The notes beneath the pieces are model-generated. The model ran no database searches and was not told where the DNA came from. It saw only the letters and a list, made by a program, of their open reading frames with translations. This document shows positions 10,890-29,026 of a stretch of 30,178 nucleotides of DNA, one piece after another. The translations under genes were made by a program, and so were the position numbers. The stretch is from a virus: IMG/VR virus record IMGVR_UViG_3300010430_000342, positions 1-30,178 of that record. One strand, 5' to 3'. Position 1 is the first letter of the stretch. The number at the start of each line of letters is the position of its first letter.

Positions 10890-11399
10890 TTACTGGTCAG
10901 CGAAGGCAGGAGCGGTTGCGCCAGTAACGGAACCCCAAACGTACCAGTTGGTGCTGTCCTTCGCCATGATGTTGATGACAGCAGAGCCGGGAACGTTTAC
11001 TTGCAGTTTGCTGTTGGAGTTGCCGTCAGCAAAAACCACCGAAGCTGCGCCATCGTCAGTGTCATTAAACGCGACGTTGCCAATGAAGAAGTTGGTGTCC
11101 GAACCTGCGTCTACGATGAAATCCGTCGCATCCGCTGCGGCACCGCCATAGACAAAGGTGAACATCGCCCCTGCTACAGGGCTTGGCAAGGTGTAGGTGT
11201 TGTCTTGAGTGCCATCCGGAACAACCAAAACACGCCCGCTGTGGGTAGCGTTGGTAAGAGTAACATCGCCGTCGGCCAGTGCTACTGGAGCCCCACCAAC
11301 AGTCGAAATCTCAGTTACCGCACCAGTGGTTGCGCTTTTGGTGATTGTTTTGAACCCGTTCTCGGAGCGAACTGGTCCCGAAAAAGTCGTGTTAGCCAT
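10890..11399 (-). CDS. Virion structural protein (169 aa)
   Basis: The ATG at 11399 has AGGAG six to seven bases upstream. It begins MANTTFSGPVRSENGFKTIT, a start shared with several phage head-associated proteins I recall, and then has repeated short strands (GRVLVVPDGTQDNTYTLPSP; KLQVNVPGSAVINIMAKD) ending in NWYVWGSVTGATAP. This is the first gene after the terminator that follows the major capsid gene, so it may be expressed at a different level. Decoration or surface fibre-like function is inferred. Confidence 0.8.
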   Translation of the reverse strand: MANTTFSGPVRSENGFKTITKSATTGAVTEISTVGGAPVALADGDVTLTNATHSGRVLVVPDGTQDNTYTLPSPVAGAMFTFVYGGAAADATDFIVDAGSDTNFFIGNVAFNDTDDGAASVVFADGNSNSKLQVNVPGSAVINIMAKDSTNWYVWGSVTGATAPAFADQ

Positions 11400-11475
11400 G
11401 GAGATCTCCTGTCGTGGCTAGTGTCAGCCGCACCATGCGACTGTCAGGGATGCCGAAATCATACAGGAGCTGTGC

Positions 11476-11539: not shown

Positions 11540-12454
11540 TTATGCTGCGCCAGGCGAACCGAACACCGCACGGGGGTCCGAGAAGCCAAAGCTGTAACGC
11601 TCACGAGCCTTGAAGCGCATGTTGCCGGTGTCGAAGTCGGCTTCCATGCCGGTCGACAGCGGGGTGCGCTCAAAGTGGATGAAGCCACGAGGCGCGTCAG
11701 TCTTCACAAACCAAGCATCAGGGTCGGTCAGGAAGTCATTGACGGTGTAACCATCGGGCAGCATGCCCATCGAACGGATCGCGTTAACGTCGTTGTCTGC
11801 AGTGCCGACACGCAGGTTCGAAACCATCAGACGCTCAGCAACAAACTGCAGCTGGCGAGGGATGATGAGTTTCATGCCGCGCAGGGCAACTTTCAGACCA
11901 CGCTCGTCAACGAAGCCCGCGATGTTGATCAAGGCGTCTTCCAGCGAGGTTTCGTTCAGGTCAGCAGGAACGCTGGGCTCGTTGGCAAAAGTGCCACCGC
12001 TGGTCAGCGGGTGGTCAGTTGCACACAGAGCTTTGCCGTCGCCACCTGCAGTCGGACCTGCATCAAAGGCGTTGTTCAGCACGGCAGCAGCTTTAACCTG
12101 CTTGGTGTGAGCCATCGAACGAGCCAGCGCACGGGTGTAACGCGAACCCAAGCGGTCATAGAGGTTGTCCTCTACGGCTTCTTCGGTCAGCGAGAACGCC
12201 AGCGCAATCGTTTCGTGATTGTAGCGGGCGGTGTACGCTTCGTTGGCATCGTCAAAGTTGATCGCAGAACCTTCGGATTTGGTCGGTGCCGCGCCGAAGC
12301 CCGACAGCATAACCTCTTCCTCAAATGCACGATCCGACGACTCGGTGGTGTAGATTTCGGAGTGCTGGTTTTCGTACCGACCATACTCCATGCCGAAGAG
12401 GGCGTTAAGACCCGGCTCCAGCTCTTTCGCGAGTTGTGCGCGCGAGATAGCCAT
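11540..12454 (-). CDS. Major capsid protein (304 aa)
   Basis: The ATG at 12454 is preceded by AAGGAGG. The protein starts MAISRAQLAKELEPGLNALF and contains TARYNHETIALAFSLTEEAV, LARSMAHTKQVKAAAVLNNA, a GLKVALRGMKLIIPRQLQF segment and the C-terminal MRFKARERYSFGFSDPRAVF. I recognise this pattern as a major capsid protein frequent in marine phage genomes, presumably with the HK97 fold and distantly related to Mu gpT-type heads. It lies downstream of scaffold-like and decoration-type genes and upstream of a strong terminator, as expected for the most abundant head protein. No cleavable prodomain is obvious. Confidence 0.92.
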   Translation of the reverse strand: MAISRAQLAKELEPGLNALFGMEYGRYENQHSEIYTTESSDRAFEEEVMLSGFGAAPTKSEGSAINFDDANEAYTARYNHETIALAFSLTEEAVEDNLYDRLGSRYTRALARSMAHTKQVKAAAVLNNAFDAGPTAGGDGKALCATDHPLTSGGTFANEPSVPADLNETSLEDALINIAGFVDERGLKVALRGMKLIIPRQLQFVAERLMVSNLRVGTADNDVNAIRSMGMLPDGYTVNDFLTDPDAWFVKTDAPRGFIHFERTPLSTGMEADFDTGNMRFKARERYSFGFSDPRAVFGSPGAA

Positions 12455-15771: not shown

Positions 15772-16341
15772 TTACCCCATCATATCCGCAATGGTGTAAC
15801 CGCGTGCCGCCATTTCAGGCGTGATACCCCACTGTTGTGCTGTCAGACCGACTGTTGCACGACCCTGCGAGTCACGAACCTGCCTGCCCAATACGTCGTA
15901 CCCATTACCCTCTTTATCGTATCGAATACCTTCAGCGTCGTACCCACCAAAACCAACGGCTTGTCCTGTGGGAAGACCTTGAATACCCATTGACGGGTGG
16001 TATTTGTTCATTGGGTCTGCAGCCGCAGCCGAAATGCGAGCGTTCTCAGCCGCCATTGCTTCAATTTCTGCGTTGGTAGGTTCACCTGCCACAGTGCCTT
16101 GATCCATGGTTGTATCCATGCCTGCACCCGTGCCCGCACCCATGCCTGCGTCCATGCCTGCATTTAAGTAAGCTTCCGTTGCAGGATCCATGTACATGCC
16201 TGGGTCACCATACATGCCATAAATATCTGCACTAGGGTCGTAACCCATAAGTGTATATTCAGCAGGATTGTATTGTTCTGGAGTGTACAAGTCCTGAACC
16301 AGGCTACCAATCCCTAACGATTGCGCGTTGTTATTCATCAT
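15772..16341 (-). CDS. Gly/Met/Ala-rich head-region protein (189 aa)
   Basis: The start at 16341 overlaps the portal stop (ATGA); a second ATG follows directly, so either may be used. The protein has a Tyr/Met-rich N-terminal half (PAEYTLMGYDPSADIYGMYG), a low-complexity stretch of alternating Gly-Met-Asp-Ala around residues 60-80, then FGGYDAEGIRYDKEGNGYDV and a helical end (LTAQQWGITPEMAARGY). I do not recognise a family. Low complexity and coupling to the portal suggest a portal-associated or minor head protein. Confidence 0.75.
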   Translation of the reverse strand: MMNNNAQSLGIGSLVQDLYTPEQYNPAEYTLMGYDPSADIYGMYGDPGMYMDPATEAYLNAGMDAGMGAGTGAGMDTTMDQGTVAGEPTNAEIEAMAAENARISAAAADPMNKYHPSMGIQGLPTGQAVGFGGYDAEGIRYDKEGNGYDVLGRQVRDSQGRATVGLTAQQWGITPEMAARGYTIADMMG

Positions 16342-18839
16342 TGCTGGCCACCTCTTTGCATTGCCATTGCCATTTGAGCAGCGATACGCTCACGGTTCAC
16401 CATGTTGCGATCATCTGCAATATCCTCTTGAAGCTCCAAACGAGCAGCTTCGCCTGCCGCTTTTTGCTCCATCTTTGCCTGCTCCATGGCAAGCTTAGCC
16501 TGGTCCAACTGACCGTCCTGCATCACCTCCTGCTGCTTGAGCTGAAGTTCTGCATTGCGGATCTGAACCAGAGGGTCGGCCATTGGATCTGGCTGCGGCG
16601 GCATGATCTCTGGAAGCATCGTTTCCAACATCTGCTGCTGCAACAGGGCCGCATAATCAGCCGCATGCTTCGGATCTTGAAGCGCCGCCTGAGTCTGCTG
16701 GATTTGCTGCTGACCCTGTTGTGGGTCAACGGCCCCAGTTTGAATTGCCATTTGCATCTGCTGGATCATATCCTGCGTTTGCTGAAGCATCTGCTGACGA
16801 GCATACATGGCAATGTGCTCCATTATATGAGCCAGCAACGCCGTGACAGCGTGCGGAATGGCTTGCACAAACGGAAGCTTAAAGAACTGCACATGCGCCT
16901 TAATATGCGCCTCGTGGTTCTGGTCTTCAAAAGCCTGGAGAGGCGTACCAACTACAGCACGACCATTTTCCATGGCCGGGTCAACGGGCTCTGGCTGCGG
17001 AGGCGGAGGCAGAATCTCGTCAATATTCTGAACCTCAAGAGCCTGATACATACGACGATACGCAGTATGCAAGTTGTGCATCTGCGGATTGGTCTGAGCC
17101 AGCTTTAATTGCTCCTGGGCCAACGCCACACGTTGTGCCATCGAGAAAATGTTCGGATCGCTAACAGGAAGGATGTCTACGCGGCCATCAAAATCCTGCT
17201 GCTTTAGTTGCTGCCCGTCATTTGCCAACTCATACGGGTATGGGTCGGGCATGCTTTCGCCAATGATGCGAGCAAGAATCTTAAACTCTTGCTTCTGGCT
17301 GTAGTGCAGGCGCTTATGAATGGCGGACAAAACTTTCATGCCGCGTTCAAGCAACGCCACAGTTGTACCGACAGGTTGCTCTTGGCCCATGTTCTGAGCC
17401 TGCTGGTCAGCAACAGAAACAAAACGGCGCCCGCCATCGACCAATGCACCCAACAGTTGAGCTAGAGTTGCGGAAGGCTCTTTATACGGCAGAGGAATAA
17501 TAGCGTCACGGATGTTGCCACCCGGTGCATCAATGTCACGGAACTCACCCGGCTGTAACGGCTCGTCGCTATTCGCAAGACGAATGCCGCGGGCCTTAAA
17601 GCCAGCAGGAAGGTTCGACAATGTACCGGCATCAATCAACTGACGCAGGATGCTGGTCGCCGCGCGACCCAAGCCACCAATCATGTGAGTCAGGCCAAAG
17701 CCATAGAAACCCAAACCCGGCAAGAATTTGTAATGCACAAAGTAAGGAATCGATTCCTTGTTGACGTCATCCTCACGATAGTTCCGGCGGATCGACAAAA
17801 CCTCGTTGCTGCCCTCGTCAATCGTTACGATGTACGGCAGCTTGATCCCAGTGGGCTCACCATCCATGCCGACATCTTCGAAGCCGTCCAAGTCCAGCTC
17901 GACATGCATTTCCAGAATGGTGCGGACGTCATCCTTATATGAGGACCGCGACGTGCCCTGCAGCTCGTCCACCTTCTTGGATACGCTATCCTCGTCGTCG
18001 TCAGCACCAGAGGACAACTCTACATCACGATAGAACCCCGAAACTTGGAGCTTGCGGACTTCGTTGTCCGACATCTTCAAAACGTGGGTGATGCGAGGCG
18101 CGCTGCGCAAATCCGTAGCTGAATACGGAACAACAACGTCCTGCGCAGGAACAAACTTGGCTACAGGACGACCCTTGGTTGGGTCAAAGTAAATCTTCTT
18201 AAATGTCGAACCTGACAGAGGCAGGTAAAACAGCATCTGGTCCGTATCAGGATCATACTCTTCCATCCGATCAACGATCAGATAGTTCATGTAATCCTTA
18301 ACGCGCTGGGCCTGCTCAATACGCTCCGGGGTGCTCAGACCAATGACATTGGTCTTCACCGGACCGCCAGCAGGCAAAAGCTCTTTGTAAGCCTGCGCCT
18401 GGAACTGAGTTACACTTTCCGCAACCAAAGGATGGGTTACGCCAGATGCACCCTCAAACGGAGTTGTTCGCTCCTCTGACTTGACGCCTAGAAGATCTAG
18501 ACCCTTCGTGTATGTTTCTTCCCAGTCCTCACGAGAGGCGAGGTCGTCTTCATACGCGCCAACCAGATCAGATGCGATCTCACCAAGAGTATCTTCTTCT
18601 AGAAAATCGGCAAGATTCGAATCAAACGGAATTAACTCTTCTTGCGAAAAGCCATCCATGGGCATACCAGCCAAGGCTTCAATCAGCGCACCGCCGTCAG
18701 GTGTTTCGGTTACTTGAGCGCCGCCAGCAAAGTCCATCGGCATATCTACCGGAACTTCCACACCAGCCCCATCCATCGGACCGATGGGGCCTGCATCACG
18801 CTCTACCATGTTGCCAAACGGCTGCGGTGGTAGCGCCAT
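16338..18839 (-). CDS. Portal protein (833 aa)
   Basis: The ATG at 18839 overlaps the large-terminase stop as TGATG. The N-terminus is acidic, followed by the core from about residue 75: WEETYTKGLDLLGVKSEERT, FEGASGVTHPLVAESVTQFQ, AQAYKELLPAGGPVKTNVIG, then YFDPTKGRPVAKFVPAQDVV and GFYGFGLTHMIGGLGRAATS. These are hallmarks of P22-like large portals that form the dodecameric DNA gate and bind terminase. The last 200 residues are Gln/Met-rich helices (QQMLQQTQDMIQQMQMAIQT), comparable to the helical barrel of long portals. Length exceeds the 700-residue P22 portal mainly through this tail. Confidence 0.93.
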   Translation of the reverse strand: MALPPQPFGNMVERDAGPIGPMDGAGVEVPVDMPMDFAGGAQVTETPDGGALIEALAGMPMDGFSQEELIPFDSNLADFLEEDTLGEIASDLVGAYEDDLASREDWEETYTKGLDLLGVKSEERTTPFEGASGVTHPLVAESVTQFQAQAYKELLPAGGPVKTNVIGLSTPERIEQAQRVKDYMNYLIVDRMEEYDPDTDQMLFYLPLSGSTFKKIYFDPTKGRPVAKFVPAQDVVVPYSATDLRSAPRITHVLKMSDNEVRKLQVSGFYRDVELSSGADDDEDSVSKKVDELQGTSRSSYKDDVRTILEMHVELDLDGFEDVGMDGEPTGIKLPYIVTIDEGSNEVLSIRRNYREDDVNKESIPYFVHYKFLPGLGFYGFGLTHMIGGLGRAATSILRQLIDAGTLSNLPAGFKARGIRLANSDEPLQPGEFRDIDAPGGNIRDAIIPLPYKEPSATLAQLLGALVDGGRRFVSVADQQAQNMGQEQPVGTTVALLERGMKVLSAIHKRLHYSQKQEFKILARIIGESMPDPYPYELANDGQQLKQQDFDGRVDILPVSDPNIFSMAQRVALAQEQLKLAQTNPQMHNLHTAYRRMYQALEVQNIDEILPPPPQPEPVDPAMENGRAVVGTPLQAFEDQNHEAHIKAHVQFFKLPFVQAIPHAVTALLAHIMEHIAMYARQQMLQQTQDMIQQMQMAIQTGAVDPQQGQQQIQQTQAALQDPKHAADYAALLQQQMLETMLPEIMPPQPDPMADPLVQIRNAELQLKQQEVMQDGQLDQAKLAMEQAKMEQKAAGEAARLELQEDIADDRNMVNRERIAAQMAMAMQRGGQQ

Positions 18840-20326
18840 CAATAATACTCCCGTTTACGAGGCGCCTGATCCGCGAAATCAAGCCGCTCTTCATCGTGTA
18901 TAGTCACGAACCCGCCTTGGCGGAAACGCATCAATGCTAGGGTCATACTATCACAAAAGTCATCGTGATCGCCATTCGGAAATGAAGACACCTCTTCAAT
19001 GACCTCTTCTGCAAATCTTTTGTCCTCAGGAGCCCATACCAAGCCCGCCTCAAACAAAGGTGACACCATATGCATTCTAGTTGTCTTATCTACACCACCT
19101 CCGCCTGCACGTCTACCTGGAGAAAAACCCAGGGCGGGAATACCCCGAGCGCGCAGCTCGTCAATCAGAGGTTTACCCGTAGCCTTGGCCTCAATAATGA
19201 CCATGTCCGGTTCCCAGTACTGATGCTCTTCAAAGGCTACTTCTTTTAGCTCCGGAAAGCTCCATCGGCCCCTTTGCGCATCCAAAAGTATCAGGTGATC
19301 CTTGTCCCCCTCCTCGGGTTCAAAGACGCCCCACGTTGTAATGGCACTGTAGTCCGCCGTTTCCTTCTTCGAGAACGCAGTATCGTAGGCTTGAATGATG
19401 TACTTCAGCGGTGGGATCTTCTCTTTCTCCCACTTCCGCCACCACTCGCGGCGCACAATGGCCGAACCCGCACTCGTGGGCTGCTGCTGCCACTGAGCCG
19501 ACCACTTACCAAGCGGAAGTGACGCCTTAATCGACAGAAGTGCGTCTTTTTCCCAAAACTCAGGCCATAGTGGTCTACCAGAAGGCAACAACGCCGGAAA
19601 CTCTACAACTTCCCATTGATCAGCCATGGCATCCGACGTCTGATTTGCTAGCAAACGGCCCGTCAAATCCTTCTTACCCCAACGGGTCATAACCAAAATG
19701 ATGGCGCCGCCAGGCTGAAGACGCTGTCGAGGACCAGAAGTGTACCACTCATAGGCGTGATCAAACGCCGTCTCGCTTAACGCGTCCTGTTCCGAGTGAG
19801 GGTCGTCAATGATGAACAAGTCAGCGCCGCGGCCAGTAACGGCAGCGCCGACACCAGCAGCAAAGTATTCGCCACCCCTGTTAGTGCCCCACTTACCGGC
19901 CCCTTTGTTATCCTCTTTAAGGACGGTGCCTGGGAAGACTTCCTTGTATGCCGGGTCATCAATCAAATCCCTAACCTTGCGACCAAATCGTACCGCCAGT
20001 TCCGTGTTATGTGTCGCTTGAATAATCTTGAGCTTCGGATTCCGGCCCAAAAACCAAGCAGGCATCAAAAATGAAGCAAACTCAGACTTCGAATGACGAG
20101 GCGGCATGTTGATAATCAAACGCTTCAACTCGCCACGCGCAACACGCTCCAGCTTTTCCGCAATAATCCGGTGATGCTCGCCCTCAATGAAGTTCTCATA
20201 CACATGATGCGCAAAGGCCATAAAACTGTTCGTAGCCTTCTCGCGAATATCCAGCTTCTTCTTGGCTTCCGTAAGAGCCAGAATCTCCTTCAGTACCTCA
20301 TCAGGTAAAGCATTAAGATTTGACAT
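18839..20326 (-). CDS. terL: Terminase large subunit (495 aa)
   Basis: The ATG at 20326 is chosen for its ribosome binding site (GGTGGAG) and overlaps the GNAT gene by 14 bases. The ATPase half has a Walker A-like loop PPRHSKSE (75-82), Walker B LFIIDDPHSE (170-179) and a coupling motif LVMTRWGKKD (211-220). The nuclease half has the RNase H-like acidic residues D315 (QAYDTAFSKKETADYS), E379 (MVIIEAKATGKPLIDEL) and the GDHDDFCDSM cluster near 453-459. It pumps DNA into the prohead through the portal and cuts concatemers. The gene is complete and of normal length. Its small-subunit partner lies about 7 kb away on the same strand, beyond the rightward genes. Confidence 0.97.
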   Translation of the reverse strand: MSNLNALPDEVLKEILALTEAKKKLDIREKATNSFMAFAHHVYENFIEGEHHRIIAEKLERVARGELKRLIINMPPRHSKSEFASFLMPAWFLGRNPKLKIIQATHNTELAVRFGRKVRDLIDDPAYKEVFPGTVLKEDNKGAGKWGTNRGGEYFAAGVGAAVTGRGADLFIIDDPHSEQDALSETAFDHAYEWYTSGPRQRLQPGGAIILVMTRWGKKDLTGRLLANQTSDAMADQWEVVEFPALLPSGRPLWPEFWEKDALLSIKASLPLGKWSAQWQQQPTSAGSAIVRREWWRKWEKEKIPPLKYIIQAYDTAFSKKETADYSAITTWGVFEPEEGDKDHLILLDAQRGRWSFPELKEVAFEEHQYWEPDMVIIEAKATGKPLIDELRARGIPALGFSPGRRAGGGGVDKTTRMHMVSPLFEAGLVWAPEDKRFAEEVIEEVSSFPNGDHDDFCDSMTLALMRFRQGGFVTIHDEERLDFADQAPRKREYY

Positions 20327-20777
20327 CCAACTCCACCTTGTAGTTCCCGCCGACAGGCTTAAAACCAAGGCGCTGCAAAAGCTGACCAGTGCGCTCCGCA
20401 GATACCCCGGTCGTTACACCCATGTACAACTCACTAGCACCCATGTCCGTGGCCCAAGATTTAAACTCCTTGAGCAAACGGATCGCGGCCCGTGAACCTC
20501 GGTACTCGGGTTCGATATACCAAACGTAGTCAGAGGCTAACTCTCCGGCACCAAAAAAATATGGGGCCATAGCTCCAGCAATCATACCAACAGGTTTGTC
20601 GCCGTCATATGCCAGCAAACCAAACCCGTTCGGGTTGTTGATAACCATGTGAATGATAGATTGAGCAGCTCTTTCGATGTCAAAAGGGATGACGCTATAC
20701 GCGCCCTCCTGCTGCATGGCGATCCCTAAGGTCAAAATGTCCCGCAAACGCTCGATGGCGAATGTTTTGTATTCCAT
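20313..20777 (-). CDS. GNAT-family N-acetyltransferase (154 aa)
   Basis: The protein shows the GNAT layout: an N-terminal strand and helix, LLAYDGDKPVGMIAGAM (54-70), then motif A DYVWYIEPEYRGSRAAIRLL (83-102) with the acetyl-CoA loop EYRGSRAA, and motif B QLLQRLGFKPVGGNYKVEL (132-150). The family transfers acetyl groups from acetyl-CoA to amines of small molecules or proteins; the substrate here cannot be told. Phage GNATs near packaging genes are known but their targets are mostly unknown. The ATG at 20777 overlaps the upstream stop and the end overlaps terL. Confidence 0.9.
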   Translation of the reverse strand: MEYKTFAIERLRDILTLGIAMQQEGAYSVIPFDIERAAQSIIHMVINNPNGFGLLAYDGDKPVGMIAGAMAPYFFGAGELASDYVWYIEPEYRGSRAAIRLLKEFKSWATDMGASELYMGVTTGVSAERTGQLLQRLGFKPVGGNYKVELDVKS

Positions 20778-23948: not shown

Positions 23949-24050
23949 GCTACCGATCCTACCACAAAGACCCGAACGAAAATATCCCCGCGATTTTTGT
24001 AAGCGGAAAACATGTGGCGCATTTGCCTGATTAAGAGGGGGATGGGTAAC

Positions 24051-24079
24051 TTGTGGTCTACTTGTGGCCCAACGTAATT
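24051..24079 (+). promoter_or_regulatory. Candidate promoter F (TTGTGG, 17 bp, GTAATT)
   Basis: The -35 TTGTGG at 24051-24056 and -10 GTAATT at 24074-24079 are 17 bases apart. The first nine bases are identical to candidate promoter A at 24247. The decamer TAGGTCTGAC begins at the end of this -10, where a repressor could block initiation. Confidence 0.45.
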
Positions 24080-24220
24080 AGGTCTGACATTTTTTATGAT
24101 ACTAATAATAAAGGTCGGCGCGCACGGAGGCGGGGGCGCAAAAAGGGGGGATGGGGGTCGCGCGGTGCGCGGCCCGCGGGCCTTGGTTGGCTGGAGTAAC
24201 CCCGGCACCTACCCTTTAGT

Positions 24221-24235
24221 ATAGGTCTGACCTAT
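24221..24235. promoter_or_regulatory. Operator-like palindrome ATAGGTC-T-GACCTAT
   Basis: These 15 bases are a perfect palindrome around a central T, ending 11 bases before the -35 of promoter A. Its core TAGGTCTGAC recurs at 24079-24088, next to promoter F. The pairing of a symmetric site and a half-like site near two promoters is typical of repressor or activator binding sites. Confidence 0.6.
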
Positions 24236-24246
24236 CCCTCTACCCC

Positions 24247-24329
24247 TTGTGGTCTGGTCACATACCGCTTGCATCTGACATGCATTTGCCCCTACTCTGT
24301 AGGAGTAGGGCGGCGATGGTCGCGGCCCT
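24247..24329 (+). promoter_or_regulatory. Candidate promoter A with two mutually exclusive leader hairpins
   Basis: TTGTGG (24247-24252) is followed 17 bases later by a weak -10 TGCATC, inside the inverted repeat TGCAT-CTGAC-ATGCA (24270-24284). Downstream, CCCTACTC-TGTAG-GAGTAGGG (24290-24310) forms an 8-bp stem. AGGGC at 24307-24311 can instead pair with GCCCT at 24325-24329, enclosing GCGA-TGG-TCGC. The two structures share 24307-24310, so they cannot form together. The second ends 21 bases before the start codon at 24351. Confidence 0.5.
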
Positions 24330-24350
24330 CTTAGCAGAAGGAAAGCCAAC

Positions 24351-24608
24351 ATGGCACAACAGATCACCAAACTACTGAACGCGTTCGTCGCAGCCGAGAC
24401 CGAGGACGAGATCCAGCACGGTTCTCAGCTCGAGGTGGCCAAGGCGGAGCTCGAGGCCCTCGGTCGATTGAAGCGGTCGGTCGACAGCATGATCAAGGCC
24501 TACCGCGAGATGGCAATCGAGGACGGGATGGCCTACCACAAAGAGATCTGGACCGAGGAACACACGGTCAAGGGTCACTTCAAAAAGCGGTTCACTTGGG
24601 TGGACTAA
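24351..24608 (+). CDS. Small helical early protein (85 aa)
   Basis: The ATG at 24351 follows AGAAGGAAAG. The product begins MAQQITKLLNAFVAAETEDE and contains KAELEALGRLKRSVDSMIKA and YREMAIEDGMAYHKEIWTEE, ending HFKKRFTWVD. It is mostly charged helix with an aromatic C-terminus. I do not recognise a family. It is the first gene of the rightward island and has a structured leader, so it may be a regulated early protein, but no function can be read from the sequence. Confidence 0.82.
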   Translation: MAQQITKLLNAFVAAETEDEIQHGSQLEVAKAELEALGRLKRSVDSMIKAYREMAIEDGMAYHKEIWTEEHTVKGHFKKRFTWVD

Positions 24609-24615
24609 CACAACC

Positions 24616-24635
24616 GGCCGGGGGCAACCCCGGCC
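24616..24635 (+). other. Intercistronic hairpin with GCAA tetraloop
   Basis: GGCCGGGG-GCAA-CCCCGGCC forms an 8-bp GC stem closed by a GNRA-type loop just after the stop at 24608. No U-run follows, so it is not a classical terminator. It may block 3' exonucleases, mark a processing site, or separate expression of neighbours. Confidence 0.7.
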
Positions 24636-24661
24636 ACCATCAACCAAAGAGGAATAAGACA

Positions 24662-24829
24662 ATGCAGATCAAACCAATGGGCCTATTCAACACCCCCGAG
24701 GATTGGAAAGTAATTGAAGACTGGATCATGGCGCACGCGCCCGAGGACCGGATGCACCTGTGGACCGCAGCCGGGATGGCGTGGAACCTAGCGGCCAAGC
24801 TGACCGCGCCCGAGACCGAGGACGCATAA
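24662..24829 (+). CDS. Small early protein (55 aa), unknown function
   Basis: The ATG at 24662 is chosen because GAGGAA lies 8 bases upstream and the longer frame enters the hairpin region. The product starts MQIKPMGLFNTPEDWKVIED and has WIMAHAPEDRMHLWTAAGMA followed by WNLAAKL. It is a compact helical, Trp-rich protein. I recall short proteins with a ...PEDWKVIEDWI-like segment in phage early regions but cannot name a family. It shares the leftward neighbour's transcript unless the hairpin stops it. Confidence 0.78.
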   Translation: MQIKPMGLFNTPEDWKVIEDWIMAHAPEDRMHLWTAAGMAWNLAAKLTAPETEDA

Positions 24830-24833
24830 ATAC

Positions 24834-24883
24834 TTGTGGGGTGGTTGTGGCTGTGCTATGATCACCCCATGGCAACCCGCCAT
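24834..24883 (+). promoter_or_regulatory. Promoter B plus 5' hairpin
   Basis: TTGTGG (24834-24839), 17 bases, then TATGAT (24857-24862) gives the best -10 of the set. The hairpin ATGGC-AACCC-GCCAT (24869-24883) begins 7 bases after the -10, where transcription should start. A strong ribosome binding site (AGGAGG) follows for the gene at 24900. Confidence 0.75.
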
Positions 24884-24899
24884 TTTAGGAGGAAATACA

Positions 24900-25211
24900 A
24901 TGGCAAACCCTTTCGCAAAATCCCGCCCGACCATGAAGCCCTATGCAATTTACCAGGGCCCAGGTATCACCTGGCATGTGGTCAAGACATACAAGATGCC
25001 CAAGAGCGAGGCCAAAGATCCCTATGCCCGCTGGCTTGTGGCAGCAAAGAGCGACGCCACGTTCGGCTCGTTCGAGGGTGGCGATACATACAAGCGCGAC
25101 GTCACGTCTTACGGGCGCCTGGTGGCAGCTGATCCAGAGTGGATCCAGGCCTATCGCCCTGGCTTTGATGGCCGCCTGCCCACGCCAGAGGAATACTTGG
25201 CCGACGCATGA
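24900..25211 (+). CDS. Early protein (103 aa), unknown function
   Basis: The ATG at 24900 has AGGAGG 8 bases upstream; the longer frame begins inside the promoter. The protein begins MANPFAKSRPTMKPYAIYQG and contains GITWHVVKTYKMPKSEAKDP, YARWLVAAKSDATFGSFEGG and YGRLVAADPEWIQAYRPG. It looks like a compact alpha/beta domain with conserved-looking Trp and Tyr residues. No family was recognised. Its own strong promoter and 5' hairpin suggest high early expression. Confidence 0.85.
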   Translation: MANPFAKSRPTMKPYAIYQGPGITWHVVKTYKMPKSEAKDPYARWLVAAKSDATFGSFEGGDTYKRDVTSYGRLVAADPEWIQAYRPGFDGRLPTPEEYLADA

Positions 25212-25253
25212 TGCACCGGTGTGGGGCCTGGCAACAGGCCCCCATCCCGTGCA
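25212..25253 (+). other. Long imperfect hairpin with GCAA tetraloop
   Basis: TGCAC at 25212 pairs with GTGCA at 25249, and GGGGCCTG-GCAA-CAGGCCCC (25223-25242) forms the inner 8-bp stem. Most bases between them also pair, giving a long rod directly after the stop at 25211. It has the same loop as the hairpin at 24616 and again lacks a U-run. Confidence 0.7.
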
Positions 25254-25282
25254 CCAGGCACGTTAACTAGAAAGGATACGCT

Positions 25283-25468
25283 ATGACCTACTACATTACC
25301 TGGATTGTGGATGGCCCCGCAATACTTACCGCGATCAATGGCGAGATCGAGCTGACAATCGATCAGCTGATGGAAGCCGCCTTTGCGGTCGAGGATATCG
25401 AGCCCGGCTCAAACTATGAGATCTGCTCGATCATCCGCGCCGATAACGCCCATGAGGTTATATACTAA
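25283..25468 (+). CDS. Small acidic early protein (61 aa)
   Basis: The ATG at 25283 follows GAAAGGA. The product is MTYYITWIVDGPAILTAING then EIELTIDQLMEAAFAVEDIE and YEICSIIRADNAHEVIY. It is acidic, with a beta strand, a helix and a second strand, a layout that could form a small inhibitor-like fold. Acidic early phage proteins often bind host enzymes, but nothing here identifies a target. No separate promoter was seen; it probably shares the transcript from promoter B. Confidence 0.8.
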   Translation: MTYYITWIVDGPAILTAINGEIELTIDQLMEAAFAVEDIEPGSNYEICSIIRADNAHEVIY

Positions 25469-25476
25469 CCAGCCCC

Positions 25477-25521
25477 GGCCCTGGCGCGCTTCACTGTGTG
25501 TGGGTTGCGCGCGCCAGGGCC
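25477..25521 (+). other. 13-bp inverted repeat after an early gene
   Basis: GGCCCTGGCGCGC (25477-25489) is perfectly complementary to GCGCGCCAGGGCC (25509-25521), with a 19-base loop. It starts 8 bases after the stop at 25468. There is no U-run, so it may be an mRNA-end protector or processing site rather than an intrinsic terminator. Confidence 0.7.
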
Positions 25522-25625
25522 TAAGTGCCTGGGCGCCGCGGCCCGAGACCCGCAGGGCGCAGGCCTCGCTTCGCTCGGAAAAATTTGTCAACCCGCAGGG
25601 CGTTGTTTTCTCAATAAAAAAGTTC

Positions 25626-25676
25626 TTGTGCTCTGGTTGTTGACGTGATACAAAACTCTTAGGGCAATACCGCCCT
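25626..25676 (+). promoter_or_regulatory. Promoter C plus 5' hairpin
   Basis: TTGTGC (25626-25631), 17 bases, then TACAAA (25649-25654). The hairpin AGGGC-AATACC-GCCCT (25661-25676) begins 7 bases after the -10 box, and CTTAACCGAAGGA follows as the ribosome binding region for the gene at 25698. The spacer shares TCTGGT with candidate promoter A. Confidence 0.75.
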
Positions 25677-25697
25677 CTTAACCGAAGGAAACATCAG

Positions 25698-25913
25698 ATG
25701 AAAAAATCCTATGTCCAAGAAAACACCCTCAAGGTCACCGTCACCATCGACCTGGGCGAGATCAACGACCTGATCAAAGAGCTCGAGCCGGTCGGCAGCG
25801 ACGAAGGCAGCAACAACTGGAAAGCCCGCGACCTGGTGACGAACCTCAAAAAGATGCGCCGCGAGGCAGCGGAAGAGGCCAAGCGCGAGTTCGAGCGGAT
25901 GGCCCAGGACTAA
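25698..25913 (+). CDS. Small charged early protein (71 aa)
   Basis: The ATG at 25698 has GAAGGA 7 to 8 bases upstream. The product begins MKKSYVQENTLKVTVTIDLG and then EINDLIKELEPVGS, followed by a long charged helix (RDLVTNLKKMRREAAEEAKR). It combines a beta hairpin with a coiled-coil-like helix, a shape seen in DNA-binding or antitoxin-like proteins, but no family is recognised. It is transcribed alone, between promoter C and an intrinsic terminator. Confidence 0.82.
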   Translation: MKKSYVQENTLKVTVTIDLGEINDLIKELEPVGSDEGSNNWKARDLVTNLKKMRREAAEEAKREFERMAQD

Positions 25914-25920
25914 CACCACC

Positions 25921-25946
25921 AGCCGGGGCCTCGTGCCCCGGCTTTT
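25921..25946 (+). terminator. Intrinsic terminator
   Basis: AGCCGGGGC-CTCGT-GCCCCGGCT forms a perfect 9-bp stem followed by TTTCGC, directly after the stop at 25913. The U-run is short, but the stem is strong. It would close the single-gene transcript from promoter C. Confidence 0.75.
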
Positions 25947-26003
25947 CGCGCACCCCACCTGCCAGGCCCTCGGGCCTGGCCCTTTTGTCCTCGGACCTCG
26001 GCC

Positions 26004-26024
26004 CTCTTATACATAGTATAAGAG
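26004..26024. promoter_or_regulatory. Perfect 21-bp palindrome CTCTTATAC-ATA-GTATAAGAG
   Basis: Nine-base arms surround ATA in an otherwise GC-rich gap. The site lies about 100 bases upstream of promoter D. Its AT-rich arms and symmetry fit a protein-binding operator better than a terminator, as no U-run follows. Confidence 0.55.
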
Positions 26025-26028
26025 CCAG

Positions 26029-26117
26029 CGCGCAGGGCGCGCAGGGCCGACGCGCAGGGCGCAGGGCATAACAGAAAAAACCACGGCGCGCAGGGCGCAG
26101 GGCATCGGCCCGCAGGG
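26029..26117. repeat. GC-rich GCAGGGC repeat cluster
   Basis: The word CGCAGGGC or GCAGGGC occurs repeatedly, including GCGCAGGGCGCGCAGGGC at the left end and CGCAGGGCGCAGGGCATC before CGGCCCGCAGGG at the right end. The right end matches the 22-bp tandem unit found at 27191-27256. Smaller copies lie at 25549-25563 and 25591-25602, so every long gap of the early island carries some. Confidence 0.7.
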
Positions 26118-26126
26118 TTTTTTCTA

Positions 26127-26176
26127 TTGTGCTTTGATTGTGGATCTGGCACAATATCCGCGGGCAATTCCGCCCT
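26127..26176 (+). promoter_or_regulatory. Promoter D plus 5' hairpin
   Basis: TTGTGC (26127-26132), 17 bases, then CACAAT (26150-26155). The hairpin GGGC-AATTCC-GCCC starts at 26162, 7 bases after the -10 box, and differs from the promoter C hairpin by one loop base. AGGAG follows for the gene at 26192. Confidence 0.75.
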
Positions 26177-26191
26177 TTAACAGGAGTTAAC

Positions 26192-26872
26192 ATGCAACAC
26201 GCCGTCATTTACAAGGGGCCGAGCCTATTGGATGGCCAGCCAATCGTTGTTATTGCAACTTATTCGAAGCGCAACACCAAAACCGGGCACGTCGTGCAAA
26301 CCTACATCGTGCGGGAAGACATGAACCCGCTGGAAGCCAGCAAAACCGGGGCAGACTATTCTATCTGCGGCGACTGTGTCATGCGCGGCACCCCGACCGA
26401 TGACCCCGCGCGCAAGCAAGCCAAGGGCCGCCGCTGCTACGTTAACTTAGGCCAGGGCGTTTTGATTGTGTGGCGCGCTTATCAGCGCGGCGTATACCAG
26501 GCGGGCAGCGCGCGTGACATGGGCCGCGGCCGATTTGTGCGCGTCGGCACATACGGTGACCCCGGCGCCGTTCCGTCGGCCGTGTGGGATGAACTGCTAT
26601 CAGAGGCCAGCACCTGGACAGCATACAGCCATCAAAGCGGATGGCGCCCCGATATTGCCATGCAGAGCGCGGACAACTACGCCCAGGCGTGGGCCCATTG
26701 GCGCGCCGGGCGCCGCACGTTCCGCGTGGTGACCGGGCTTGACGAGATCGACACCGCCCACGAGGCGCTTTGCCCGGCATCAAAAGAGGCGGGGCGCCGC
26801 GTTCAATGCACCGCTTGCAAGCTGTGCAAGGGCGGCACCGCTGCAAAATCAATCGCAATCGTGGAGCATTAA
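26192..26872 (+). CDS. Conserved phage protein with two Cys pairs (226 aa)
   Basis: The ATG at 26192 has AGGAG 6 bases upstream. The product starts MQHAVIYKGPSLLDGQPIVV and contains DYSICGDCVMRGTPTDDPAR, then RRCYVNLGQGVLIVWRAYQR, and ends with VQCTACKLCKGGTAAKSIAI. I recall this SICGDC...CYVN.GQ..L.VWRAY pattern in proteins of phages and plasmids without assigned function. The CGDC and CTACKLC motifs suggest zinc or metal binding. Aromatic-rich middle segments (HQSGWRPDIAMQS, YAQAWAHWRAGRRTFRVVT) suggest a globular domain. A nucleic-acid-linked early role is plausible but unproven. Confidence 0.88.
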   Translation: MQHAVIYKGPSLLDGQPIVVIATYSKRNTKTGHVVQTYIVREDMNPLEASKTGADYSICGDCVMRGTPTDDPARKQAKGRRCYVNLGQGVLIVWRAYQRGVYQAGSARDMGRGRFVRVGTYGDPGAVPSAVWDELLSEASTWTAYSHQSGWRPDIAMQSADNYAQAWAHWRAGRRTFRVVTGLDEIDTAHEALCPASKEAGRRVQCTACKLCKGGTAAKSIAIVEH

Positions 26873-27150: not shown

Positions 27151-27190
27151 GCCATTGCTGGCGCAATCACCGACCAAAACACCCAGCCCG

Positions 27191-27256
27191 CAGGGCGCAG
27201 GGCGCAGAGCATCGGCCCGCAGGGCGCAGAGCATCGGCCTGCAGGGCGCAGAGCAC
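27191..27256. repeat. Tandem 22-bp GC-rich repeat at the convergent junction
   Basis: Two full 22-bp units (27213-27234 and 27235-27256), CGGCCYGCAGGGCGCAGAGC plus AY, follow a partial third unit. The last unit ends at the stop codon of the nuclease gene. The same unit occurs in the cluster near 26100. No spacers are present, so it is not a CRISPR. Confidence 0.8.
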
Positions 27257-27675
27257 TAACCCCGACCCAAAACCCCAGCATAATGATCAAAAGACGCAGC
27301 CCGCAGAGCATCCCAAAGCTCACCGTGGCCCTTGAACATCGATCCTTGAACCTCGGACAGGGGTTTCTGCACCAAAGCAACCGCCTCTGACCCCGGAATC
27401 AAATGAATGTAGCCCGAAGAGAGGCTCTTTACCAAGAAAAACGAAAGGCCCCCGCGCGCCCAATATGCAGTGTGCCACGCGACCTGATGGGGAGATACTT
27501 TTGTGATCACATTTTTCTGGACCTTAATCTCAACCCAGAAGGGTAATCCTTTCCACAGCACATGCACATCGGGAATCCCACCACCAGCGCGGTTCTCAAC
27601 CCTCGTCGTCAGTGCGTCCTTTGGTTTGTTTGCTCGAATTGAGTTCCAGAAGTTCGCTTCGGGCCCCTTGCTCAT
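27256..27675 (-). CDS. PD-(D/E)XK nuclease (VRR-NUC / resolvase-like, 139 aa)
   Basis: The ATG at 27675 overlaps the small-terminase gene by 80 bases. The product begins MSKGPEANFWNSIRANKPKD and has RVENRAGGGIPDVHVLWKGL (D36) and PFWVEIKVQ (E49, K51), then SPHQVAWH (Q64). This is the order of the PD-(D/E)XK VRR-NUC type fold that cuts branched DNA. Phages often place such a gene next to terminase, where it can clear branches before packaging. Its 3' region carries a heptamer-repeat copy (27338-27362). The C-terminal 40 residues are less typical. Confidence 0.85.
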   Translation of the reverse strand: MSKGPEANFWNSIRANKPKDALTTRVENRAGGGIPDVHVLWKGLPFWVEIKVQKNVITKVSPHQVAWHTAYWARGGLSFFLVKSLSSGYIHLIPGSEAVALVQKPLSEVQGSMFKGHGELWDALRAASFDHYAGVLGRG

Positions 27676-28765: not shown

Positions 28766-28814
28766 TTGCCAACCCCCGCCATTGCGTGTAGCTTGTTCGT
28801 GGGCAACAACGCCC
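28766..28814 (+). promoter_or_regulatory. Promoter E plus 5' hairpin
   Basis: TTGCCA (28766-28771), 17 bases, then TAGCTT (28789-28794). The hairpin GGGC-AACAAC-GCCC (28801-28814) starts 7 bases after the -10 box, the same spacing as at promoters B, C and D. AAGGAG follows for the gene at 28835. Confidence 0.65.
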
Positions 28815-28834: not shown

Positions 28835-29026
28835 ATGTATATGGTTTCGTACACCTTGAACCATGGCGGTAACAATCTTGAGGACATTTTTGTATTAATC
28901 GAGGATCAGGCTGCGGCTGATCACTACGTAAAGCATACGTTGCTTCCGCTGGACCACCTGCATTGCTGGGCTGTGTCGAAGGTGTTGTCGGCGTCTGAGC
29001 CGCATTGGGTAGAGGAGGCAGCATAA
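28835..29026 (+). CDS. Small early protein (63 aa), unknown function
   Basis: The ATG at 28835 has AAGGAG 8 to 9 bases upstream, and the longer frame begins inside promoter E. The product begins MYMVSYTLNHGGNNLEDIFV and has LIEDQAAADHYVKHTLLPLD, ending CWAVSKVLSASEPHWVEEAA. It looks like a small alpha/beta protein with a strand, a helix and a strand. No family was recognised. Its stop overlaps the next start as TAATG. Confidence 0.8.
   Translation: MYMVSYTLNHGGNNLEDIFVLIEDQAAADHYVKHTLLPLDHLHCWAVSKVLSASEPHWVEEAA

Follow-up and report, generated by a model that had tools for sequence, protein, structure and literature searches.

Repressor operators of the lambda type overlap the -10 and the start site of phage early promoters, and attenuators and translation switches of the trp/ilv type make use of mutually exclusive hairpins. 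Structures at the 5′ ends of transcripts are also relevant here. According to a review (PMC3997798), 5′ structure stabilises mRNA, RppH prefers single-stranded 5′ ends, and RNase E also relies on them.

The sequences compared here favour, with a somewhat better than even chance, a scheme in which host-type early promoters of a phage group give mRNAs with base-paired 5′ ends, and in which the first early promoter bears an operator-like palindrome. Two separate elements would form the promoter and the leader of the first early operon. One is the inverted repeat IR1, the left arm of which contains the -10, while the right arm would reach the transcription start. Host-type polymerase would start within this right arm, and the RNA would fold at once from its first nucleotides into the second element, a hairpin that begins no more than one or two nucleotides from +1. 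Behind it, the Shine-Dalgarno (SD) motif and the start codon would lie in a short unpaired stretch. With such a hairpin the message would lack an unpaired 5′ terminus, the start of decay by pyrophosphohydrolase, RNase E, or 5′ exonuclease would be slower, and the ribosome site would stay as open as without the hairpin. The palindrome would serve as an operator through which the first operon regulates itself.

Both 5′-terminal stabilising hairpins and promoter operators are already known. The E. coli ompA and papA leaders, as described in PMC3997798, likewise have a hairpin that includes the first nucleotide or adjoins it, and then a single-stranded ribosome site. In contrast to these leaders, the phage hairpins recur at several promoters of one phage as well as across the group, are phased to the -10, prefer an AA loop and a C-G closing pair, and are known here from sequence. 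IR1 is similar to lambda-type operators in that an inverted repeat covers the core of the promoter in front of the first early operon and its letters vary between phages. Unlike these operators, the -10 itself is the left arm of the palindrome, one copy is present per locus checked, and no repressor gene, integrase, or second operator was found in the records searched. New, as far as the open-licence literature shows, would be the group-wide occurrence of +1 hairpins with covarying stems together with a palindrome that incorporates the -10 before the first early operon; no prior description of the hairpin set or of the -10 palindrome was found in that literature. If the scheme is true, start sites of early genes in never-grown phages could be placed from sequence alone, because the hairpin would mark +1 and the palindrome would mark the first early promoter. 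The phage group would then use RNA structure at the 5′ end, and not a protein, to protect or tag early messages, an idea that is testable with reporter leaders in laboratory strains.

The phage record and its relatives

The window, i.e. the whole stretch of DNA analysed, is a phage record of 30,178 bases (IMG/VR IMGVR_UViG_3300010430_000342; locus label L001). The structural genes occupy its left part on the minus strand, including tail genes and the genes for the major head protein (11540-12454), the portal (16338-18842), and the terminase large subunit (18839-20368), and rightward small genes begin at 24351. Relatives of the terminase are present in 023Pt_psg01 (61% identity) and Pelagibacter phage HTVC027P (58.6%), and the closest proteins to the gene 26192 product are those of Roseobacter phages CRP-118 (60.3%) and CRP-403 (57.9%). 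A GNAT acetyltransferase gene (20313-20777, minus strand) adjoins the terminase gene. The only Rfam match at gathering score in the whole window was the Mu-gpT-DE RNA (11397-11449, minus strand, 73.8 bits), located where the region of the major head protein ends; no leader hairpin was matched, and none of the four sub-threshold matches in 24000-26250 was located at a leader hairpin.

Searches of 12 partial records of the phage group yielded no integrase and no HTH_3 match over the cut-off; two weak matches occurred in other records. A virulent lifestyle is therefore likely for this uncultured phage with its first early operon at 24351. Its first early gene (24351..24608, plus strand) encodes a protein of 85 amino acids that is predicted to consist of a long helix and a beta-hairpin. 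The model is confident (mean pLDDT 86.5), a Foldseek search with it gave zero matches at E 0.001 or better, and no recognisable DNA-binding fold was found in the model and structure comparisons.

Gene 24351 has eight relatives in viral contigs. Further loci were gathered by the letters of the first-gene hairpin alone, and the families of gene 24900 and gene 26192 added about 148 loci. In two loci (L012 and L014) the leader precedes genes unrelated to 24351, and it is thus conserved for its own sake.

Hairpins at the predicted starts of early messages

Five leaders with a hairpin cap are present in the window, and four of them have exactly 6 nt between the -10 and the hairpin. These four, all on the plus strand, precede gene 24900 (promoter TTGTGG-N17-TATGAT, 24834..24862; hairpin ATGGC(aaccc)GCCAT, 24869..24883), gene 25698 (TTGTGC-N17-TACAAA, 25626..25654; AGGGC(aatacc)GCCCT, 25661..25676), gene 26192 (TTGTGC-N17-CACAAT, 26127..26155; GGGC(aattcc)GCCC, 26162..26175), and the gene starting at 28835 (TTGCCA-N17-TAGCTT, 28766..28794; GGGC(aacaac)GCCC, 28801..28814).

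To quantify the phasing, we used 322 distinct promoter-plus-gene candidates from relatives, which had been chosen without requiring a hairpin; they are distinct by the exact letters from the -10 to the ATG, and related phages are still counted more than once. Of the 322 candidates, 64 carry a hairpin whose start lies 5-7 nt downstream of the -10 (18, 38, and 8 at distances of 5, 6, and 7 nt, respectively), compared to 4.0 expected and 5.4 in a second shuffle set. At other start distances, 37 hairpins were observed versus 31.9 expected. With start sites predicted from the -10, the excess over the 4.0-5.4 expected would favour a stem at or near the 5′ terminus of the message. For comparison, control phage contigs had a hairpin at that place in two of 99 candidates, with 1.4 expected. 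The control comprised 120 phage loci (1.09 Mb) after six of 126 that share family sequence had been dropped; many of these loci had been fetched with a leader-like pattern, which would, if anything, favour a match. The search of viral contigs with the short leader pattern gave mostly chance-like hits among the matches listed, and these loci were kept only as controls. Four promoter candidates in the named phages CRP-118, CRP-403, and HTVC115P included zero with a hairpin, and a comparison of the leader DNA with named phages gave no meaningful match.

The -10 motifs of the phage leaders are weak, which fits the poorly conserved sigma-70 -10 of Sinorhizobium, for which starts 5-12 nt from the promoter end were accepted, as stated in PMC3616915. 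The predicted unpaired probabilities at +1, +2, and +3 are 0.26, 0.08, and 0.05, respectively.

Covariation is clearest for the gene-25698 leaders. All 22 distinct leaders contain the hairpin (mean score 14.7 versus 9.0 for shuffled sequences), and in an alignment of the 19 that have a 6-nt loop, 91.2% of the cells pair. Within the same alignment, 12 cells are changed on both sides, compared to 2.3 in shuffles, and the covariation value of 0.368 (0.113 for shuffled sequences) was reached by none of 500 shuffles. Thus, pairing rather than letters is conserved in these leaders. The fractions are lower for the other two families. Scores of at least 14 were obtained for 33% of the 76 distinct gene-24900 leaders (7.5% in shuffles) and for only 23% of the 86 distinct gene-26192 leaders (5.7% in shuffles), i.e. 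the hairpin is confined to subsets of both families, and many relatives have none. A covariance model built from 30 leaders of other phages ranks the window leaders at 28801 (E 2e-5), 25661 (E 2.8e-5), and 26162 (E 7e-4) first, and scores the gene 24900 leader (24867) at chance (E 9.0).

The 64 hairpins represent 25 distinct stems. The loop starts with AA in 43 of them, the 5′ arm ends in C, giving a C-G closing pair, in 55, and T[TC]AA is found downstream in 47. These preferences amount to more constraint than a mechanical cap needs and would suit an RNA regulon, in which the capped mRNAs are turned on or off jointly by an RNA-binding protein, of the phage or of the host, that recognises the AA loop with its C-G closing pair. 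We regard this possibility as doubtful: the hairpin of the first early gene has a different loop (GCGA-TGG-TCGC), a candidate protein is not known, and the SD motif is equally open with and without the hairpin.

A different role would be an action of the nascent +1 hairpin on RNA polymerase during early transcription, by anti-pausing, antitermination, or promoter escape. An antitermination RNA might well be situated at the extreme 5′ end of early transcripts, as these hairpins are, and PMC9378689 describes a nascent RNA of this kind, the put RNA of HK022, which forms close to the 5′ end of early transcripts, binds the elongation complex, and acts on early genes. The phage hairpins are much smaller than put and less constrained, i.e. 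single stems of 4-9 bp with variable letters. In addition, they occur in many copies at several successive promoters and not once per operon, so that a put-like role appears improbable.

Several further features were observed in the early region. Early promoters often contain two CTTGT motifs, one forming the -35 and the other lying in the spacer at a distance of about 12 nt (e.g. CTTGTGCTTTACTTGTGGATGTGAGACAAT); this doubled motif is found upstream of early genes at 24800-26160 of the window and in many of the loci L121-L189. Clusters of short repeats of the type GCAGGGCGCAGGGC lie between early genes (window 26020-26115 and 27180-27260) and also upstream of gene 26192 relatives. A GTGC..GCAC hairpin followed by GTTAACTAGAAAGGA (25246-25278) precedes gene 25283; the covariance model matches it weakly (E 0.13), and it has no clear promoter. 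In the loci L020-L029 (e.g. L020:6962-6983), a phage dnaK gene is followed by an hsp20-like gene, the leader of which has the hairpin TAGGGCGCCGATGGTCGGGCCCTA 7-9 nt after TATAAT and TTGCT between the hairpin and the SD motif. This leader is reminiscent of a ROSE-type RNA thermometer; Rfam at gathering score gave no match at it in the members scanned. These loci match the pattern of the first-gene hairpin, were handled as a separate case, and were placed only among the controls.

The hairpin of the first early message

The putative 5′-terminal hairpin of the first early mRNA (24304..24331, plus strand) corresponds to the second of two leader stem-loops described in the first-pass annotation. 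Its core, 24307-24329, reads AGGGC.GCGA-TGG-TCGC.GCCCT, in which AGGGC (24307-24311) pairs with GCCCT (24325-24329) and GCGA with TCGC, giving nine pairs and -15.3 kcal/mol for the stem-loop alone. It would start within a nucleotide or two of the predicted +1, and the SD region AGAAGGAA (24336..24343, plus strand) follows.

Stem-loop 2 is kept in all ten aligned leaders, with 98.9% of the pair cells intact. The outermost pair is A-U in seven leaders and C-G in two, and the core is otherwise invariant or compensated; this A-U to C-G exchange is the only pair of 24307-24329 that is changed on both sides. Its own covariation is weak, with 25 of 500 shuffles reaching the same value, because the stem-loop hardly varies. 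When the leaders were folded to the start codon, it formed in 10/10 (0.86-0.96). Upon addition of 45 nt of the gene it was lost in five of the ten (0.09 or less) and had a value of 0.56 in three; ribosomes may prevent the long-range fold with these first 45 nt.

The covariance model from other phages scores stem-loop 2 (24305) at chance (E 9.3), which indicates that it belongs with the other leaders by position and not by loop letters. Judged from sequence, stem-loop 2 is most likely one copy of a hairpin that stands at the start of many early messages in the phage group. A host origin of the element was dropped, since the ten stretches with the exact pattern in genome contigs each lie inside or against a long open frame and were taken as chance matches. 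The short leader occurred in two of 295 genomes of the G012 family, which is at chance level.

An identical stem-loop 2 is present in L030, a locus without an IR1-type palindrome, and its distance from the -10 to GGGC is 9 nt, the same as in the window. L030 belongs to another phage type, and the 23 nt identical to the first-gene hairpin (L030:1421-1443) precede an unrelated small gene. The L030 promoter region contains the palindromes TTACGCGTAA and TTACGTGTAA. Near the hairpin, a long frame of terminase type seems, by eye, to contain an intein.

The palindrome IR1 at the first early promoter

Upstream of gene 24351, the highest promoter score was obtained for TTGCAT-N18-TACTCT, with the -35 at 24269..24274 and the -10 at 24293..24298 (both plus strand). 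Its score of 13.0 corresponds to a moderate match of both motifs, on a scale on which the 39 upstream regions of gene 26192 relatives used for training of the matrix score 10.9-20.0 and the 95th and 99th percentiles of the background are 9.8 and 16.0. The -10 lies within the left arm of IR1, the palindrome CCCTACTC-TGTAG-GAGTAGGG (24290..24310, no strand assigned), which covers the -10 and the predicted start site. IR1 is identical to the first stem-loop of the first-pass annotation. Its arms (24290-24297 and 24303-24310) would form eight pairs (-12.9 kcal/mol alone), and in comparison with dinucleotide shuffles the P values are 0.0025 for 30 nt and 0.019 for 60 nt.

Across relatives with the same leader, the position and the symmetry of IR1 are kept and the letters are changed. 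The arms are CTATGAC/GTCATAG in L005, TACATCC/GGATGTA in L012, CTACACC/GGTGTAG in L014, CCTTCT/AGAAGG in L047, CCATATC/GATATGG in L057, and CCCTCAT/ATGAGGG in L066. In the window, L004, and L014, the promoter with the highest score has its -10 in the left arm, and in L012 the same holds for the second-best. A -10 can also be placed inside the palindrome in L047, L057, L066, and L067; the promoters TTGACC-N17-TAAGAA of L047 and TTGACA-N17-TAATGA of L066 were found by eye and have a low matrix score (3.3). Therefore, stem-loop 1 would not be transcribed from the promoter that it overlaps, and it is most likely a DNA palindrome built on the promoter and not an RNA element. L005 and L010 are exceptions, in which stem-loop 1 would be transcribed from a better-scoring promoter, TTGTGC-N17-CACAAT, just upstream; in L006 and L007 this promoter is weak and its -10 is damaged.

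An inverted repeat with arms of at least 6 covers the -10 region in 38 of the 322 candidates, compared to 6.7 expected. A palindrome phased with the -10 was found in 30 of the 322 (2.3 expected; three of the 30, L063, L105, and L118, are chance-like and were kept in the count) and in one of the 99 controls (1.2 expected). The inverted repeat over the -10 and the start site is thus present beyond chance. Phased palindromes mostly precede a first early operon, and for 29 of the 30 the message behind would have a paired 5′ end. The genes directly behind them mostly belong to one family, characterized by a long helix and a beta-hairpin. An exact copy of the palindrome is present once per locus in 18 of the 19 loci checked; for L182, the search pattern had the wrong spacing. 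Taken together, IR1 is most likely an operator by which an early product would shut off its own first operon.

The first-pass annotation had suggested a search for a phage repressor; in the 12 partial records, neither an HTH_3 match over the cut-off nor an integrase was found. This absence of a temperate-type repressor and of an integrase, the presence of one site per locus, and the different letters in different groups are also compatible with a host regulator site or a promoter-opening feature instead of a phage operator. We consider this alternative possible, if not very likely, because two letter types (CTACATC..GATGTAG and CCATAAC..GTTATGG) recur in many phages with strict phasing on the -10, as for a bound site, and letters that differ between groups are easier to reconcile with a phage protein that evolves along with its site than with an invariant host factor. 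An equally tentative scheme would combine both elements, i.e. the phage group might have converged on compensatorily kept +1 hairpins as a regulon, with one phage or host RNA-binding protein reading the C-G-closed AA loop, while the first early promoter would be autoregulated via the palindrome that has its own -10 as left arm.

The overlap of the two stem-loops

Stem-loops 1 and 2 share the bases 24307-24310, exactly as the first-pass annotation had noted, and the annotation had proposed that the two mutually exclusive hairpins act as an attenuator or a translation switch for gene 24351. RNA starting upstream of 24290 would have to contain both stem-loops, and the choice between them would control the gene. 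The two helices would indeed compete in an RNA starting at 24283, in which stem-loop 1 would beat stem-loop 2 (0.82 versus 0.003), and the well-scored upstream promoters of L005 and L010 could give such transcripts. The shared bases are real, as in trp/ilv-type switches, and a 4-nt overlap recurs in L057 and L067. In contrast to these switches, the 5′ arm of helix 1 is promoter DNA, with the -10 within stem-loop 1 in most groups, and the alternative upstream promoter of the window scores only 8.0. The overlap, 4 nt in the window, amounts to 1-2 nt in L005-L010, L012, and L014 and is absent in L047 and L066. In most groups, with the exception of L005 and L010, the two helices would not share a transcript, and the overlap varies from 0 to 4 nt. 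The first-pass annotation had also proposed covariation as a check; stem-loop 2 is paired in 10/10 leaders and weakly covarying, and the overlap with stem-loop 1 is not kept.

There is also nothing to toggle, as neither a terminator nor a sequestered ribosome site was found. A terminator scan listed nothing at stem-loop 2, which is followed by CTCTTAGC and not by a T-run. Neither hairpin holds the SD motif of gene 24351, and the predicted accessibility of the SD motif does not differ between leaders with the +1 hairpin (0.65) and leaders without it (0.64). The switch is thus highly improbable. The overlap is better explained by the anchoring of both IR1 and the +1 hairpin to the start of transcription.

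The upstream palindrome and the decamer

The first-pass annotation had assigned the operator to the palindrome ATAGGTC-T-GACCTAT (24221..24235, no strand assigned). It is present, but among the palindromes before the first early operon it is stem-loop 1 (24290-24310) that has the operator-like character. The record contains five palindromes of the same shape (7-bp arms with a 1-nt centre), which is not beyond chance, and the 24221 palindrome was dropped as an operator. It is poorly conserved in relatives, with one mismatch in L004 and other letters in L005-L010.

The decamer TAGGTCTGAC was said to have a second copy, and exactly two copies occur in the record (24079-24088 and 24222-24231). The former is part of a conserved upstream element, CTTGTGGTCTACTTGTGGCCCAACGTAATTAGGTCTGACATTTTTT (24050..24095, plus strand), and represents the window version of the conserved block CTTGTGGTCTACTTGT..AATTA......ATTTTTT, which starts with CTTGTGGTCTACTTGT in all 11 listed loci (including the window; the loci had been retrieved by means of these same letters). 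A two-block TTGTG/TTGT pattern was not beyond chance over the window. The motif TCGAAAGATA, which is partly palindromic (TATCGAAAGATA), lies about 60-100 nt upstream of the first-gene hairpin in L005, L057, L066, and L067, approximately at the position of the 24221 palindrome in the window.
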